A stretch of 45,804 nt of DNA from Rikenella microfusus (lineage in GTDB: Bacteria; Bacteroidota; Bacteroidia; Bacteroidales; DYQK01): contig DYQK01000008.1 in assembly GCA_020719385.1 (NCBI GenBank), positions 1-45,804 of the forward strand. The letters are read 5' to 3'. The position numbers and the translations under genes were made by a program. A model generated the notes under the pieces. That model was not told the origin of the DNA and made no database searches. It saw nothing but the letters and a program-made list of their open reading frames with translations. Shown here one piece after another: positions 88-19,732 of the stretch (its first letter is position 1; every line of letters begins with the position of its first letter).

Positions 88-195
88 CGACAATTCGTTT
101 GGGACGTAAAGAGCGACGCCTCAAGTTATTGGGTAGCACGTTTCGTTTGTCTATTTTAAAAGAAAAGCCCGTTATTTCGGGGCTTTTCTTTTGTA
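88..195 (+). ncRNA. candidate small RNA (~105 nt) ending in an intrinsic terminator
   Basis: Promoter-like box just upstream, no ORF in the interval, hairpin TTGGGaCGT...ACGcCTCAA, then a GC stem followed by a T-rich tract. Confidence 0.35.
158..195. terminator. bidirectional intrinsic terminator
   Basis: AAAAGAAAAGCCCG-TTATTT-CGGGGCTTTTCTTTT, U-tract on both strands. Confidence 0.75.
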
Positions 196-606
196 CATTG
201 TTTCCATAACAATTCTTTTTTTACCTTTTCGATTTACTCGAATACTTTCAAAATAGAAATATAAAATTTCACCAATAATATATTCATATTGTAGAACGTC
301 TAGGTTTTGTTGATTTTTCCCCACATAACTAATCATTCCTTTCTCAAGAATTAATGGAATTAAATTAAAATCTTCGGTGATAACATTTATTTGTCCCCTA
401 TTTTTTTCTTTATAAAAATCTCCGTGATGTTTAAAAGTGTGTTTAATTGCATAAGTATCAATTAATCTCTCAAAATTTGAAGTATCAAAACCAAGATTTT
501 TTATTTTTTTTATATCAGAATCAGAAATTAAACCCAAACTAAATTCAAATTGTTGATTTGAATTGTCATTCAAAATTTTCTCAACAAAAGTTTTCAAATT
601 GTTCAT
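172..606 (-). CDS. PBECR (Barnase/EndoU/ColicinE5-D/RelE)-like nuclease-domain protein, 144 aa
   Basis: ORF; pattern 'YAIKHTFKHHGD...ITEDFNLIPLILEKG...FESIRVNRKGKKRIVMETMYKRK' resembles PBECR domains. Confidence 0.5.
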   Translation of the reverse strand: MNNLKTFVEKILNDNSNQQFEFSLGLISDSDIKKIKNLGFDTSNFERLIDTYAIKHTFKHHGDFYKEKNRGQINVITEDFNLIPLILEKGMISYVGKNQQNLDVLQYEYIIGEILYFYFESIRVNRKGKKRIVMETMYKRKAPK

Positions 607-662: not shown

Positions 663-1874
663 TTATTTTTTGAAGTAAAAATCGCCTGTCATTGAACTGG
701 ATTTCCAAGGACATTGCTTTTTATTTGTACTTTTCGAGACATTGCCGCTCACTAAATTAAAAATCTGGTCTATTGTTAAACCTGATTTTGTTATATTTTT
801 CAAAATGGATTCTGTGTAAACGCCATTTCTGCCATTTCCATCTGCCGCAGTGCTACCAGGCGAAGTGGCAAAACCAATAAACGTACCTTCAGGATAATTT
901 TTCATTTCAGTTAAACCATTGCCATTGCCATCAACATCACGAATTACACCCCAAGAACGCTCAAAAGGATTATTGCGGCAAGCATCTAACAAAACAATAT
1001 TGGTCGGAGTACGAGAACCCATACGAGACAAAATTTTACTCAACGGATAACATTCATACGAAACATCAGATTCCGCTTTTAAAGTTGCATCAATAGGAAT
1101 CAAATAATTTTCGCCCTTCACTTGAACACCGTGACCCGCATAAAACAACAAACTTATTTGAAAATTTGCCAATTTGTCATAAAATAAATCCATCGCATCT
1201 ACTAAATCTCGCTTACTGACATTTTTATAAATCAAAACTTCGAAACCCAAATCGCGCAACACTTTTGCGATGTCGTCAGCATCATTGACAGGATTTTTCA
1301 ACGGACAAGACACATAAGACGCATTGCCGATAACCAATGCCAAACGTTTCTCTTTTATAACTTCTTCATATTCAACCGAATACAAATATTTACTCGCGCC
1401 GCCATTGTTTTTGGCGGTTATCGAAAAACGATTTTGACCAACAGATAATTTGACTTCAGGTTTGTAAAAATACGTATTGCCACTCACACGCACTGCCTCA
1501 AGCACAGGAATAAAACCACGACTATCTTGCGACAACGTAACCACAGGCAATTCAGACGAGGTAACCGAAAAGTCTAATGTAACGGAACTCAAAGACGAAA
1601 GTGAAATTGGATTTTGAACTTGAATAATTGGAACTGACGCACCAATATTCACTTTTATGCCTTTGCTTTGGGCAGTTACATAGTCAGAAATGTAAACTTT
1701 TATGCCTTTGCTTTGGGCAGTTACATAGTCAGAAATGTAAACTTTTATGCCTTTGCTTTGGGCAGTTACATAGTCAGAAATGTAAACTTTTATGCCTTTG
1801 CTTTGGGCAGTTACTTCCTGACCAAAAAGCACAGAAACATTTAGACAAAACAAAATGAAAAATATTAATCGCAT
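663..1874 (-). CDS. secreted caspase-like (peptidase C14) protein with N-terminal 15-aa tandem repeats
   Basis: Signal peptide MRLIFFILFCLNVSVLFGQ; KRLALVIGNASY...YAGHGVQ...LLDACRNNPF caspase His/Cys motifs; repeats VTAQSKGIKVYISDY. Confidence 0.85.
   Translation of the reverse strand: MRLIFFILFCLNVSVLFGQEVTAQSKGIKVYISDYVTAQSKGIKVYISDYVTAQSKGIKVYISDYVTAQSKGIKVNIGASVPIIQVQNPISLSSLSSVTLDFSVTSSELPVVTLSQDSRGFIPVLEAVRVSGNTYFYKPEVKLSVGQNRFSITAKNNGGASKYLYSVEYEEVIKEKRLALVIGNASYVSCPLKNPVNDADDIAKVLRDLGFEVLIYKNVSKRDLVDAMDLFYDKLANFQISLLFYAGHGVQVKGENYLIPIDATLKAESDVSYECYPLSKILSRMGSRTPTNIVLLDACRNNPFERSWGVIRDVDGNGNGLTEMKNYPEGTFIGFATSPGSTAADGNGRNGVYTESILKNITKSGLTIDQIFNLVSGNVSKSTNKKQCPWKSSSMTGDFYFKK
1651..1814. 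repeat. perfect 45-bp tandem repeat, ~3.6 copies, in frame
   Basis: acttttatgcctttgctttgggcagttacatagtcagaaatgtaa starts at 1651, 1696, 1741 and 1786 (partial) without substitutions. Confidence 0.97.
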
Positions 1875-1968: not shown

Positions 1969-2391
1969 TTACATGCTACCAAAGCCGTCTCCTTTACGCA
2001 CTTTTACTTCGAAAGTGACGTTGTTGTTTATTAATTCCTGCAAATCTTTTTTTACCAACCATTTTAATTGCAATTTACTGAATTTTTTGCAAGGCAAATT
2101 GTAAAAATATTTATACGGATATGATACAACATTTCCTTTCTCGTCTCGATAAGAGAAAAGTGATTTGCATTTTTGAAAAGTTTTTCCACCGTCTAAGGAA
2201 TAATAAAGAGATGCAGAGATATCAAAAGTTTTTTCATCTTTTTCAAGAATAATTTTTTTCACTTCAAAATCGACAACAATGGTATCGCCGTTTTGCGTTG
2301 CTTCTACGTTTTTCAGTTTAAACATTTGTGCTTCGCAAACATTACCACAGAATAAAATTATTGTGGCAATAAAAAAAATCAGTTTTTTCAT
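1969..2391 (-). CDS. secreted hypothetical protein (start re-annotated to MKKLIFFIATIILFCGNVCEAQ)
   Basis: ORF with signal peptide; the listed upstream start would run through an inverted-repeat element. Confidence 0.7.
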   Translation of the reverse strand: MKKLIFFIATIILFCGNVCEAQMFKLKNVEATQNGDTIVVDFEVKKIILEKDEKTFDISASLYYSLDGGKTFQKCKSLFSYRDEKGNVVSYPYKYFYNLPCKKFSKLQLKWLVKKDLQELINNNVTFEVKVRKGDGFGSM

Positions 2392-2430
2392 TTTTGGAAA
2401 AATTGTAAACGCTGTCAGGATTTTTGTCTT

Positions 2431-2488
2431 CCCACGACTGAAGTCGTGGGTTAAAATGCGAATCTTAGCCCACGATTTTAATCGTGGG
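2431..2488. repeat. REP-like doublet of two related 20-nt palindromes
   Basis: CCCACGACTGAAGTCGTGGG (2431-2450) and CCCACGATTTTAATCGTGGG (2469-2488), 18-nt spacer. Confidence 0.8.
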
Positions 2489-2616
2489 AATAAAAATGTA
2501 GATTTTTCGGTTTTCATTTTTGTAAAAATTTAGAGGTTTTTCGCAGCAAAGATAAAAAAGTTTTTTGTAAAAAAGAAATTTTTTTGTATTTTTGTAAAAA
2601 TAAATTTCTTTTTTCT

Positions 2617-5600: not shown

Positions 5601-8600
5601 CATCAATACTCATCGTTACTCCGTGATAATCAATTCATTAAGTGGAATTATCAACGTTGGAAATGGGCAAAATTTTACTTCTCTCACAAATGCAGGTGGA
5701 ATTTTTGAGGCAATAGAAAATTCGGTGATTTCGGGCAATTTGGAAATAAAAATTACCTCAAATTTGAACGAAACGGGCAATTTTGCGTTGCGAAAATGGG
5801 CAGAAAATGGAGCAGAAAATTATACAATTTCGATAAAACCCGCAGATGCGGCGGCAAAAATTATTTCGGGAAATAAACCCTCGAAACCCTTGATTTTGCT
5901 TGAAAATTCGGGTAAAGTAATTATTGACGGCAGTTTTAACAACGCAGGAAGTTTTTTAACTTTTTCGAATAATGCGGTAACAGACAGCACGACGGTTCTT
6001 GCGTTGCAAAACATTGATTTTCAACGAATTATGATAAAAAATTGTAAATTTTTCACAGGTTCGAATGCGGCAAAAACTTTCTCAATTTTGATTTCAAATA
6101 AAAATTTTGAAAGTAAAAATATTTCTCAAGATACAATTTTTATCTCAAATAATCAAATTTCGAAAGCAAGTTGCGGATTAAGAATCGAAAAAATGAAAAA
6201 TTTGGTGATTTCAGAAAATATTTTTGGGGCAGAAACGTCTGCAAATTATCTCACCGAATCAGGAATTTTTGCAAATTTTTGCGAAAATATTAAAATTTCA
6301 CAAAATTTGTTAAAAAATATTATCAATAATTCAGAAAATATTGTCATCGGAATTGATTTAGGTGAAAAAAATAAACGCATTTTTTTGGAAAAAAACACGT
6401 TGACAAATTTTCAAAGTACAACTTCGGGAGCAAAAGGAATTTTTATTCACACGCAAAGTCTTGATAATCAAATTGTTGTCTCAAATAATTCTATTTCGAA
6501 AATTTTTGGTCTCGGCGGTGCAGAATTTTCAGACGCAAATATTGGAATCGGAATTGAACATTCTGATAATATCTCGTTGATTTTCAACGCAATATCGCTT
6601 TCGGGAATTGCAGATAATTCGCTTGCAACGACAAGTGCGGCACTTTGGTTAAATAATGGAAATTCTCGTTTAAATATTCGTAACAATGTCTTTTTCAATG
6701 AGTTAACAAACACTTCGACTAACTCTGAATCGTTTGCCGTTTTGAACGAAAATGAAAAAATTGCGTTTGCAAATATTGATTTTAACGATTATTTTGTCAA
6801 TGGAAATCAAGGAATTTTGGGCTATTTCGCAACTTATCAGCGAAATTTAAACGAATGGAAAACGGCTACCTCGCAAGACGATAATTCTATTTCTGCGAAT
6901 CCGTTTTTTACCTCGGCGTCAAATTTGTTGCCGCTTCAAACTTCGTTAGTCGCAACCGAAGGGCAATTTTTAACCAATTTTTCTACCGATATTTCAGGAA
7001 ATTTGCGAGATTCGGTTTTGCCATCGATTGGTTGTTATGAAATTTTGCCCGCCTTCGCAACGATTCAGAACTTTAACAAAGAATGTGCCAAAAAACAAGA
7101 CACAATTTTTATTTCAGGAACATTTTTTACGAATGCGATTTCTGTGAAATTTTGCGGCAAAACGGCTTTGAGTTTTTCTGTCGATTCTGCAACGCAAATT
7201 CGGGCTGTTGTTCCTTCAGGTGACACAACAGGAAATATCGAAATTCGCACCAAAGCAGGCAATTGCGTAAGCGTTTCGACGTTTACAATTGATAATCGAA
7301 AACCAAGAACAACGATTTCGAGTAACGCAAATTTGTTTTTAAATCAAAATTTTGAGGCAACAATTCATTTTAACGAGCCAATTTTGTCTTTTGATACTTC
7401 CGATATTTTTCTCGAAAACGCAAAAATTTTAAATTTTCAAAAACTTAATGATACAAATTTTTCAATAACTATTTCTCCGTTAAATGAAGATACGGTTTTT
7501 GTGCAAGTGCTTGATTCTGTGTGCGTTGACCGTGCGGGAAATGAAAATTTAAAATCAAATTCTTTGTTAAAAATTTTCGACCAAACTGCTCCTTTCGTTC
7601 AATTTTCTGCGACCAACGAAATTGATACGGTTTTTAAATCTTTCGAGATACATTTTATTTTCAACGAAGAGGTGAAAAATTTTACAACTTCGGGCATCTC
7701 AGTAACGAATGCGACTCTAAAAAACTTTCGAAAATATACAAATTTTCTTTACATTGCGGAAATTGTGCCGTTAAACGAAGGTTTAGTGCAGATTTTTTTG
7801 CGAAAAAATGCTGTTTTTGACGAAGCAGGCAATGGAAATGAGATTTCTGATACGTTTGCGATTCCGTATGTTATTGATACGATTTCTCCCGAAATTCAAG
7901 TGCTTTCGGCAGTGCAAAGCGGAGGAACGGTTTATTCGCCGTTTGAAGTTACGTTTAAATTTTCTGAAAAAGTTAAACAATTTGCGGCAAATGATATTCT
8001 TGTTACGAATGCGACTTTGAAAAATTTTTCAGGCAGTAATTCGGTTTACAAAGCGAAGATTTTTCCGCAAAACGAGGGAATTGTTACGTTAAATATTTTT
8101 GCGAATGTGGCTTTTGACTTTGCGGGCAATCCGAGTGCGGAGGCAAAAACTTTTTTTGTGGAATATAAAATTGACGTTTCTGCTCCGAAGATTCAAATTA
8201 TTTCGAGTGCTGGAAATCAAGTTGTGTTGCCTTTTTCGGTGAAAATTTTGTTTAATGAAGATGTAAATGGTTTTACTTTGTCGGATATTTCGGTGAAAAA
8301 TGGCAGGGAAATTGACTTTTTGATGTTAAACAAAAGAGAATATTCTGCGACAATCATTCCGTTCAAAGAGGGTGCGGTGCAAGTTTCGATTCCCGATAGT
8401 GCGGCTCAGGACAATGCTGGAAATTTCAACGAAGTTTCGAATATTTTGGTGCGATATTTCTATATTGATGCGATAAGTCCGACTATTTTGATTACCGCAA
8501 ATACTTCAGGAACTACGGTTCAGACAAATTTTGTGGCAACTTTTTCGTTCAGCGAGGCAGTTGTTGGTTTTAACGAAAATGATATTGTTCTGACGAATGC

Positions 8601-9015
8601 TTCGAAGGATTATTTTATGAAAAAAACGCCGACAAGTTATCAAATAACGGTTTTTCCGTTAAATGCGGGTTTTGTTTACATTGATATTCCTGAGGGTGCT
8701 GTTGAGGATTCTGCGGGCAATGCGAATTCTGCCATTCGATTTACAATTTTTTATAAACCGTTTAATATCAATACTTTAACGGATTTAGAATTTTCGATTT
8801 CTCCGAATCCTGTTGGAGAGAATTTTAAAATTGAAGTTTTCGAAAATAAATTTTTTGATGTAGAAATTTTTAATAACGAAGGGAAAAAACTTTTTTCAGC
8901 AAAAAATTGTCGAGAAAATATTTTTATTGATGGTAAAAATTTTTCGAAAGGAATTTATTTGGTGAAAATTTGTGTTGGCGAGCGATTTGTGTTGAAAAAA
9001 ATTGTTAAAAATTGA
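2617..9015 (+). CDS. very large secreted surface protein: BNR-associated-like N-terminal modules, beta-helix-like region, five Ig-like repeats, T9SS type A sorting domain
   Basis: Start re-set to MKTQIIFFFIFHFWANIIFSQ; repeated 'ISP..QV..A..GG....F..TF.FSE.V..F...DI.VTNA' blocks; C-term 'FSISPNPVGENFKIEVFE...GKNFSKGIYLVKICVGERFVLKKIVKN'. Confidence 0.85.
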   Translation: MKTQIIFFFIFHFWANIIFSQTQNYSFAANTNSYSELINPNVLASRNFDNSIFQNIPLNFQFGFNGNIFHSLNISSNGYVWFGNGVLNVENQALAAENSPDVEGIIAVLSLDLQPQVFSELSYKTEGIAPNRVFTVQWKNFKSQGNAGNGDKFNFQLKLVENSWQIKFCYGNFVKNSVSQNAQVGIKGNSQLDFLIRKTSTDWSQTTAADSIFETCLLSQNVKPLDNQVFTFTPPTKNIPQIEILQASTETAVPNGNHYPMLLIHPKLRWGTGNKILNSLIINTLNTDNSDVKPNGVKIFFTKKPFFNSDSLLAATSISNNSANFENLNFEICDTNTFFWVTFDISASATVSNILDAQILANQILISNLPYPNLDANPAGNRQISNEKSVFSVSAKQIATSFLEQNSTENPILMLDIEIRGNEGNLSLDSLQCVDLQGDTGIFSPDGIKLFRTTDTFFSTANLLAATNFENQIATFNIANPLNLPQGHTFLWICADIKSDTKLHKKIDFAILPQKIKINNKYFPDFALNPEGESYTEVVVNQYFPYIEKLDSASFSKFIHSKTFLRDTVFWKINSSQWVNNQRDTNSFASISYQSTNLSDWFISPPVNLGNLGNYLLEFDISLCGNPPNLQNNNRFVVLISSENGEIFKLSDTLKTFKSTSYIDSIFQHEIIDLQNRTGIVRFAFYAESQYQKSLNFLNIKNLQVRKKSPMRLISCKATQKNTNFVLPNTSNVEILKIEIETQNAFSPLNVNFFSIDMLENQGTTNISDVSKVKIFYTENFDTLNFQHPKTKLFGTELPFSYLGINGNQTLLDGKNYFWVVFDVSQNVIEGHFLDAACPSILISDTMRNVQNFSPQGKRKIADAPKISFIPQKKALGMSVRVLDNVQISDISQVNFSQNFKPRLYFKKSTSPNIFVNNSDTTDGWKFVEATMKNNISVSFSIDYQLLNTEIDTFDEIDYFIIAQDTFSTPNVAVNQGIFNVFPQNVNLTSEHFPVINTHRYSVIINSLSGIINVGNGQNFTSLTNAGGIFEAIENSVISGNLEIKITSNLNETGNFALRKWAENGAENYTISIKPADAAAKIISGNKPSKPLILLENSGKVIIDGSFNNAGSFLTFSNNAVTDSTTVLALQNIDFQRIMIKNCKFFTGSNAAKTFSILISNKNFESKNISQDTIFISNNQISKASCGLRIEKMKNLVISENIFGAETSANYLTESGIFANFCENIKISQNLLKNIINNSENIVIGIDLGEKNKRIFLEKNTLTNFQSTTSGAKGIFIHTQSLDNQIVVSNNSISKIFGLGGAEFSDANIGIGIEHSDNISLIFNAISLSGIADNSLATTSAALWLNNGNSRLNIRNNVFFNELTNTSTNSESFAVLNENEKIAFANIDFNDYFVNGNQGILGYFATYQRNLNEWKTATSQDDNSISANPFFTSASNLLPLQTSLVATEGQFLTNFSTDISGNLRDSVLPSIGCYEILPAFATIQNFNKECAKKQDTIFISGTFFTNAISVKFCGKTALSFSVDSATQIRAVVPSGDTTGNIEIRTKAGNCVSVSTFTIDNRKPRTTISSNANLFLNQNFEATIHFNEPILSFDTSDIFLENAKILNFQKLNDTNFSITISPLNEDTVFVQVLDSVCVDRAGNENLKSNSLLKIFDQTAPFVQFSATNEIDTVFKSFEIHFIFNEEVKNFTTSGISVTNATLKNFRKYTNFLYIAEIVPLNEGLVQIFLRKNAVFDEAGNGNEISDTFAIPYVIDTISPEIQVLSAVQSGGTVYSPFEVTFKFSEKVKQFAANDILVTNATLKNFSGSNSVYKAKIFPQNEGIVTLNIFANVAFDFAGNPSAEAKTFFVEYKIDVSAPKIQIISSAGNQVVLPFSVKILFNEDVNGFTLSDISVKNGREIDFLMLNKREYSATIIPFKEGAVQVSIPDSAAQDNAGNFNEVSNILVRYFYIDAISPTILITANTSGTTVQTNFVATFSFSEAVVGFNENDIVLTNASKDYFMKKTPTSYQITVFPLNAGFVYIDIPEGAVEDSAGNANSAIRFTIFYKPFNINTLTDLEFSISPNPVGENFKIEVFENKFFDVEIFNNEGKKLFSAKNCRENIFIDGKNFSKGIYLVKICVGERFVLKKIVKN

Positions 9016-17917: not shown

Positions 17918-18056
17918 TTTTTTTGTTTTTTCAAAAAATTAAATTAACTTTGTAATTTGAAAAATTATGGTATAATTTTTGTTTTTTCAAAAAATTAAAT
18001 TAACTTTGTAATTTGAAAAATTATGGTATAATTTTTGTTTTTTCAAAAAATTAAAT
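17918..18056. repeat. 56-bp direct tandem repeat (~2.5 copies) carrying promoter-like TAACTTTG boxes
   Basis: gttttttcaaaaaattaaattaactttgtaatttgaaaaattatggtataattttt begins at 17925, 17981 and 18037 (partial). Confidence 0.95.
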
Positions 18057-18085
18057 TTTTTATTAACTCAAAATCTCTTTGACAA

Positions 18086-19732
18086 ATGACAAATTTATCA
18101 ATTCTTTTGGGAATGGAACAATATATGGTTATTGTTACTACAGTAGTTATATTGTTCGTTTTTATGTTGATTTATTCGCTTTTCAAGCGTTATAAGCGTT
18201 GTCCTTCTGACAAAATTTTAGTTGTTTATGGAAAAGTCGGGAACAAAGAAGGTGAGAAACGTACTGCAAATTGTATTCACGGAGGAGCGGCTTTTATATG
18301 GCCGATAATTCAGGATTACGAATATCTTGATTTGACGCCGATTCCTATTGTTGTTGATTTGCGAAATGCGTTGAGTAAGCAAAATATTCGTATCAGTGTT
18401 CCGTCTCGTTTTATGGTCGGCGTTTCTACCGAGCCCGGGGCAATGGACAATGCCGCTGAACGTTTATTAGGTCTGAATCTTTCGCAAATTCACGATTTGG
18501 CAGCTGATATTATTATCGGTCAACTCCGCGTTGTTATTGCAACAATGTATATCGAAGAAATTAACAGTGATAGAGAAAAATTTCTTACCAACGTTTCTGA
18601 CAGTGTTGAACACGAATTAAGAAAAATCGGTTTAAAACTCATCAACGTTAACGTAACCGATATTACCGATGAGGCGGGTTATATCGAGGCATTGGGAAAA
18701 GAAGCAACTTCTCACGCAATAAACGAGGCAAAGAAAGTTGTTGCCGAGAAAGACCGCGATGGAGCAATCGGCGAGGCAAATGCCCGCAAGGAACAAAGAA
18801 TTCAAGTGGCAAACGCAAATTCTGACGCAGAATCAGGCGAAGCAGCAGCAACACAGAGAAAGCGCGTTCAAGTAGCAAACGCCAATTCCGAAGCAGAAAT
18901 GGGAGAAGCAAACGCAAATCAGCGAAAACGCGTTCAAGTGGCAAACGCATTAGCAGAGGCACAAATCGGCGAATCTAACGCACAACAAAAACAGCGTACA
19001 GAAATGTCAAAAGCAAATGCTTCGGCTGTCGAGGGTGAGAATATTGCGAAAATTACTATCGCAAATTCTGATGCTATTCGTAGAGAACAAGAAGCTGAGG
19101 CACAAAAAAGAGCCACTATTGCGGAAAAAGTAAGTATCGCAAAAGCATTAGAAGAGTCTTACTCCGCCGAGCAAACTGCTGAGACAATACGTGCAGAACG
19201 CGATAAAGCAACGCAAACTGCGAATGTCGTTATTCCTGCACAGATTTTTAAACAAAAAATCGAAATCGAAGCAGAAGCAGAGGCAGAAAAGATTCGCCGT
19301 ACAGCGAAAGGTCAAGCAGACGCAACATTCTTCCAAATGGAAGCACAAGCAAAAGGTATTTTCGAGATTCTTTCGAAACAATCAGAAGGTTTCACGCGTT
19401 TGGTTCAAGCAGCAAAAGAAAATCCACAAGATGCCGTAATGCTTATGATTGCCGACAAATTGCCTGATTTGGTGAAATTGCAAGTCGAAGCAATTAAAAA
19501 TATCAAAATCGATAAAATTACCGTTTGGGACAATCTTGGCGGTGGAAAAACAGGAAACACAGCAACAGCGGGCTTTTTGTCAGGAATGTTGGGTTCATTG
19601 CCTCCATTAGAAGACATTTTTAAACTCGCAGGAATGCAGTTACCTGAATATTTGCGAAGCAAAGGAAAAATTCCTGAAGAAAAAACCATCAAAACAACGG
19701 CAAAAACCGAAACTGACGAAAAAGAAAAGTAA
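18086..19732 (+). CDS. flotillin / SPFH-domain membrane protein
   Basis: N-terminal TM helix, SPFH-like segment, long Ala/Glu-rich coiled coil with 22-aa repeats. Confidence 0.9.
   Translation: MTNLSILLGMEQYMVIVTTVVILFVFMLIYSLFKRYKRCPSDKILVVYGKVGNKEGEKRTANCIHGGAAFIWPIIQDYEYLDLTPIPIVVDLRNALSKQNIRISVPSRFMVGVSTEPGAMDNAAERLLGLNLSQIHDLAADIIIGQLRVVIATMYIEEINSDREKFLTNVSDSVEHELRKIGLKLINVNVTDITDEAGYIEALGKEATSHAINEAKKVVAEKDRDGAIGEANARKEQRIQVANANSDAESGEAAATQRKRVQVANANSEAEMGEANANQRKRVQVANALAEAQIGESNAQQKQRTEMSKANASAVEGENIAKITIANSDAIRREQEAEAQKRATIAEKVSIAKALEESYSAEQTAETIRAERDKATQTANVVIPAQIFKQKIEIEAEAEAEKIRRTAKGQADATFFQMEAQAKGIFEILSKQSEGFTRLVQAAKENPQDAVMLMIADKLPDLVKLQVEAIKNIKIDKITVWDNLGGGKTGNTATAGFLSGMLGSLPPLEDIFKLAGMQLPEYLRSKGKIPEEKTIKTTAKTETDEKEK
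18791..18990 (+). repeat. 22-aa (66-bp) coding repeats in the flotillin coiled coil
   Basis: EQRIQVANANSDAESGEAAATQ / RKRVQVANANSEAEMGEANANQ / RKRVQVANALAEAQIGESNAQQ. Confidence 0.85.

Follow-up and report, generated by a model that had tools for sequence, protein, structure and literature searches.

Our analysis of 45,804 nucleotides from Rikenella microfusus (contig DYQK01000008.1, the whole of which is called the window here) revealed a perfect 45-bp in-frame tandem array immediately behind the signal peptide of a secreted caspase-like protein; the array is probably a coding minisatellite private to this lineage and located in a flexible linker, which arose through slippage or unequal recombination and is tolerated since the reading frame is kept. 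This reading is built on features that were seen directly, namely, the array and its reading frame, the order of the domains, a unit confined to this one locus, the intact putative dyad, and other in-frame arrays. Perfect repetition in frame, low model confidence (pLDDT) for the segment, a repeat-free paralog (L010), a segment without convincing homologs in 393 genomes of the order, 22 other perfect arrays in the sampled part of the same genome, and a conserved caspase domain all speak in its favor. The relevant features are as follows.

663 to 1874, including the stop codon, minus strand: secreted caspase-like protein of 403 amino acids (open reading frame; Pfam PF00656, E = 8.8e-40)
1815 to 1874, minus strand: N-terminal 20 residues, MRLIFFILFCLNVSVLFGQE, interpreted as a signal peptide of type I (sequence inspection; AlphaFold2 helix at residues 2 to 16)
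1651 to 1814, minus strand: 45-bp in-frame tandem array encoding (VTAQSKGIKVYISDY)x3 plus VTAQSKGIKV, residues 21 to 75
1365 to 1637, minus strand: all-beta Ig-like domain, about residues 80 to 170 (AlphaFold2 strands at residues 83 to 169; alignment with paralog L010)
675 to 1349, minus strand: Peptidase_C14 (caspase) domain, residues 176 to 400 (Pfam), with His248 (YAGHG) and Cys299 (LLDACR)
1969 to 2388, minus strand: small secreted protein, upstream (ATG at 2388, MKKLIFFI...; no family match)
172 to 606, minus strand: protein with a PBECR3 nuclease-like domain, downstream (PF18812, E = 2.2e-13; 56-bp gap to the caspase gene)

Tandem Repeats Finder placed the array at positions 1651 to 1814 (period, 45; 3.6 copies; 100% matches; score, 328), exactly where the original prediction had reported a perfect 45-bp repeat. 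Its 164 bp hold 3.64 copies with zero mismatches, the last a partial copy of 29 bp, and have a self-overlap of 119 bases; the longest self-match in the window at offsets of 9 to 399 is these 119 bases, compared with 11 to 15 in 20 base-shuffled windows, and chance is thereby excluded as its source. Read in the coding direction (minus strand), the array starts at gene nucleotide 61 (codon 21) and spans codons 21 to 75, and after three VTAQSKGIKVYISDY units and VTAQSKGIKV the protein sequence switches to NIGASV, leaving a repeat segment of 55 residues directly behind the signal peptide. The open reading frame, the start at codon 21, and the PF00656 match agree with the earlier description of an in-frame repeat right after the signal peptide of a caspase-like protein. 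The sequence beyond the array was considered as a diverged further copy and rejected, with 7 of 16 bases matching by eye, close to chance.

With 3.64 in-frame copies of 45 bp, the array belongs among coding minisatellites, whose tandem units are roughly 10 to 100 bp. It is like bacterial intragenic minisatellites, or variable-number tandem repeats (VNTRs), in that perfect in-frame units lie in a coding gene and the frame is kept at any copy number, whereas the hallmark of bacterial VNTRs is copy-number polymorphism and this array is known from one assembly. That 45 is divisible by 3 and that length could thus change without a frameshift, as first suggested, follows arithmetically. The accompanying suggestion of phase variation fails on the same arithmetic: because the array lies inside the open reading frame, a change in copy number shifts no frame, which excludes frameshift switching, and an on/off phase-variable contingency locus was rejected.

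The domain order is signal peptide, repeat segment, Ig-like domain, and Peptidase_C14. The PF00656 match scores 137.3 bits against a curated cutoff of 21.4, and His248 and Cys299 are invariant across an alignment of 11 sequences (the query and ten distant relatives from several bacterial groups); judged from sequence, the putative catalytic dyad is intact. Two narrower assignments were rejected, namely, an EACC1-associated caspase (NF047832; 40.1 bits, below the curated cutoff of 140) and an anti-phage caspase (only 33.8 bits to the PADLOC "caspase" model); no defense partner was recognized among the scanned neighbors of the gene, and PHROGs gave no match. The same-strand PBECR3 gene gives the caspase a toxin-like nuclease as a neighbor; it lies outside the repeat and is possibly cotranscribed with the caspase gene, as is possibly the upstream gene for the small secreted protein.

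The AlphaFold2 model consists of a signal helix (residues 2 to 16), an unmodeled stretch (residues 14 to 79; pLDDT below 50), a beta-sandwich (residues 83 to 169), and then the caspase fold, with a pLDDT of 62 to 81 in the blocks of the Ig-like domain and mostly 76 to 97 in the caspase domain. It was built on 11 sequences in which the repeat segment has no homologs; the low pLDDT at residues 14 to 79 is compatible with disorder and may merely reflect those missing homologs. The best solved-structure matches found by Foldseek were to the MALT1 paracaspase (PDB 3uo8, 3v4o, and 4i1p), the closest solved structures for the caspase domain in both sequence and fold. MALT1 is also similar in having an Ig-like domain beside its caspase domain. 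The Ig3 domain of MALT1 is C-terminal to the caspase domain, whereas the Ig-like domain here precedes it. Prokaryotic caspase homologs likewise begin with a helix or signal peptide, after which comes a C14 domain whose Cys-His dyad is intact, and there are several caspases per genome (PMC3501461); the protein described here is unlike them in its Ig-like domain and in the perfect repeat linker ahead of it.

The repeat segment had also been proposed to form an exposed region, which our searches do not support. No sorting or anchor domain was detected in the caspase-like protein with Pfam and NCBIfam, and no lipobox was seen by eye; the same searches recognize a type IX secretion system (T9SS) tail in a neighboring protein of 2,143 residues, and the T9SS sorting domain and PorZ-like match reported by NCBIfam in the window suggest a Bacteroidota-like host. 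Because no T9SS tail, anchor, or lipobox was found, a periplasmic or soluble secreted location is at least as likely as surface exposure. The missing anchor and tail likewise weigh against a selected N-terminal segment of variable length, a contingency-type VNTR in which copy-number differences between strains would tune the distance of the caspase from the membrane or a partner. Perfect identity, the kept frame, a secreted product, and the longest perfect array in the sample would fit such a role, and repeat-based length variation is known in surface proteins (PMC8201768), but a 15-residue unit that forms no folded domain in the AlphaFold2 model and a segment with no convincing homolog among 393 genomes make it unlikely. 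The array resembles the repeats of Periscope Proteins in its near-identical tandem units, in the export of the protein, and in a length that is variable in principle, whereas Periscope units are folded domains that form a stalk on an anchored surface protein (PMC8201768). The 15-residue units have no predicted fold, are short for a domain, and lie where pLDDT is below 50 and the alignment has no homologs of the segment; no cell-surface anchor was found by Pfam, NCBIfam, or inspection for a lipobox, which speaks against a Periscope Protein.

A propeptide with repeated self-cleavage sites was also considered, in which the caspase would trim its own N terminus after lysines of the unit. Each unit has two lysines (QSK-G and GIK-V), the His248/Cys299 dyad is intact, and orthocaspases are reported to cleave after positively charged, basic residues (PMC6426788), but lysines are common and the segment is not conserved, and we consider this explanation very improbable. 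Equally improbable is a repeat-tuned bacterial caspase, in which the repeat would be a length-variable leader and the number of copies would govern how the protease is exported, self-processed, or activated.

Comparisons within and beyond the genome bear on the origin of the segment. Paralog L010 of the same genome (34% identity over query residues 94 to 317) has the same layout of signal peptide, linker, Ig-like domain, and caspase, with a short, unrelated linker free of repeats, indicating that the effect of the repeats is a longer stretch from the signal peptide to the Ig-like domain. The 45-bp unit was absent elsewhere in the genome at up to 3 mismatches, the three full copies being the sole matches, and was not found in viral contigs. 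The N-terminal segment had no convincing homolog in 393 genomes of the order, where only partial matches (E values of 5e-4 to 0.01) were seen. The 40 nearest relatives included no genome of the same family, and searches of the genome and viral collections gave no close relative; the repeat-free part of the protein matched 13 distant caspases in genome contigs at 35 to 44% identity, too distant for strain comparison, and the plasmid collection gave matches to the caspase domain alone, below 60% identity. Caspase genes of other species also have perfect arrays nearby, and at neither of the two loci placed do these lie at the linker position: those of L014 lie beyond the end of the open reading frame and those of L034 ahead of the first ATG.

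A second caspase-type gene of the genome, on contig C95 (L121, positions 7161 to 8830), has a broken frame: a 345-residue open reading frame stops close to where the caspase domain begins, and the remainder (L012) is in a different frame; it is a pseudogene or an assembly error. Window positions 2370 to 2560 and L121 positions 7118 to 7308 share about 137 bp that are identical at both sites. This element contains two CCCACGA-N6-TCGTGGG palindromes, lies just past a TATCTTTG motif and upstream of a secreted-protein gene, could encode the same 40-residue N-terminal extension, MKTEKSTFLFPRLKSWAKIRILTHDFSRGKTKILTAFTIF, at both sites, and looks like a REP-type dispersed element. The genome holds 16 exact copies of the palindrome at 11 places on contigs C178 (window positions 2431 to 2488), C89, C95, and C166. 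Five of the 11 places are pairs 37 to 62 bp apart, and four of these five have a caspase-like open reading frame no more than about 2 kb away, with about 0.1 coincidences expected by a rough, post hoc estimate made with the genes at the other sites partly read.

A census that covered about 40% of the genome (1.46 Mb without N) counted 23 perfect arrays, 18 of them with periods divisible by 3. The array in the caspase gene is the longest (self-overlap of 119 bases; runner-up, 90) and is the extreme of a class within the genome rather than a unique object. Among the first 19 arrays examined, 15 had a period divisible by 3, and 12 of these 15 lie in open frames of at least 199 residues; the in-frame arrays are often in coiled-coil stretches of nuclease-like proteins. 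Perfect in-frame arrays at L088 (5824 to 5937), L113 (9570 to 9675), L111 (14182 to 14238), L137 (416 to 617), and L138 (16254 to 16328) lie in a Transposase_31/YhgA-like (Rpn-type) gene and in genes for coiled-coil proteins with nuclease-like C-terminal parts, two of which start with MKKKKLTKQD, and several arrays resembling this set are located at contig ends. The window itself has a second perfect array, intergenic and of a period not a multiple of 3 (17920 to 18057; 56 bp x 2.46), before an SPFH/Band 7 gene (18086 to 19732) whose flotillin-like product contains degenerate 66-bp in-frame repeats (18801 to 18982).

Confidence in the copy number depends on the assembly. Exactly 55 terminal bases are common to another place in the sampled genome at 35 of 183 contig ends, and exactly 55 bases are common to both sides of 4 of 24 gaps (100 N each); such sharing is characteristic of de Bruijn assemblies whose final k is 55, the short-read default of SPAdes and metaSPAdes, and we take these as the probable type of assembler. 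In a k = 55 graph, perfect arrays with a 45-bp period form a loop once they reach about 100 bases, and miscounting is frequent for repeats that exceed the length of the k-mer or read (PMC6868369). Since the self-overlap of 119 bases exceeds k, the copy number and the identity of the inner copies would be assembler output rather than directly read sequence. It is quite possible, then, that the array is real and its 3.64 copies are the assembler's estimate for a graph loop, with inner copies that may not all be identical. A loop with whole 45-bp units and a 29-bp tail implies at least 2.64 copies (119 bases), any count beyond that needing read pairs or coverage, and the true number is probably at least 2.6, with 3.6 as assembled. 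Two other loci fit this explanation: a 24-bp perfect array (L088) adjoins a 100-N gap, and a 21-bp array (L140), whose self-overlap is exactly 55 bases, is truncated by the start of a contig. On the other hand, seven arrays with self-overlaps of 70 to 119 run through inside contigs (one beside a gap), and read pairs may have resolved them. An assembly effect is compatible with a coding minisatellite, as it alters the number and not the object, and is likely in part. For the original prediction, this means that three full copies and a partial one, identical at the nucleotide level, describe the assembled sequence rather than a secure measurement. The 0 differences over 119 positions, at face value a pairwise divergence between copies of less than 2.5% (95%), would point to the recent expansion or active homogenization that it proposed, provided that the assembly renders the copies correctly, which for the inner copies is insecure at k = 55.

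The coding minisatellite that we favor could have formed when a 45-bp piece just 3' of the signal-peptide codons was duplicated and then reduplicated, by replication slippage or unequal recombination. The array would persist because its period is a multiple of 3 and its product lies in a flexible linker between the mature N terminus and the Ig-like domain, where extra length may do little harm; near-neutrality and linker flexibility are here presumed. Two observations weigh against this account: a purely neutral process does not predict the most extended perfect array of the sample, and simple duplication between short repeats leaves the 29-bp partial last copy unexplained.

Coding minisatellites that keep the frame are already known, as are secreted caspases of bacteria; on their combination, a bacterial caspase with repeats, literature searches gave no relevant result. 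The array is a neat case of a minisatellite kept in frame within a coding gene, and also a caution that perfect arrays longer than the assembler's k in short-read metagenomes are neither measured copy numbers nor proof of homogenization. To our knowledge, the physiological roles of the bacterial caspase family are mostly unknown; a demonstration that the copy number varies and alters the behavior of the protease would tie repeat instability to a bacterial caspase.
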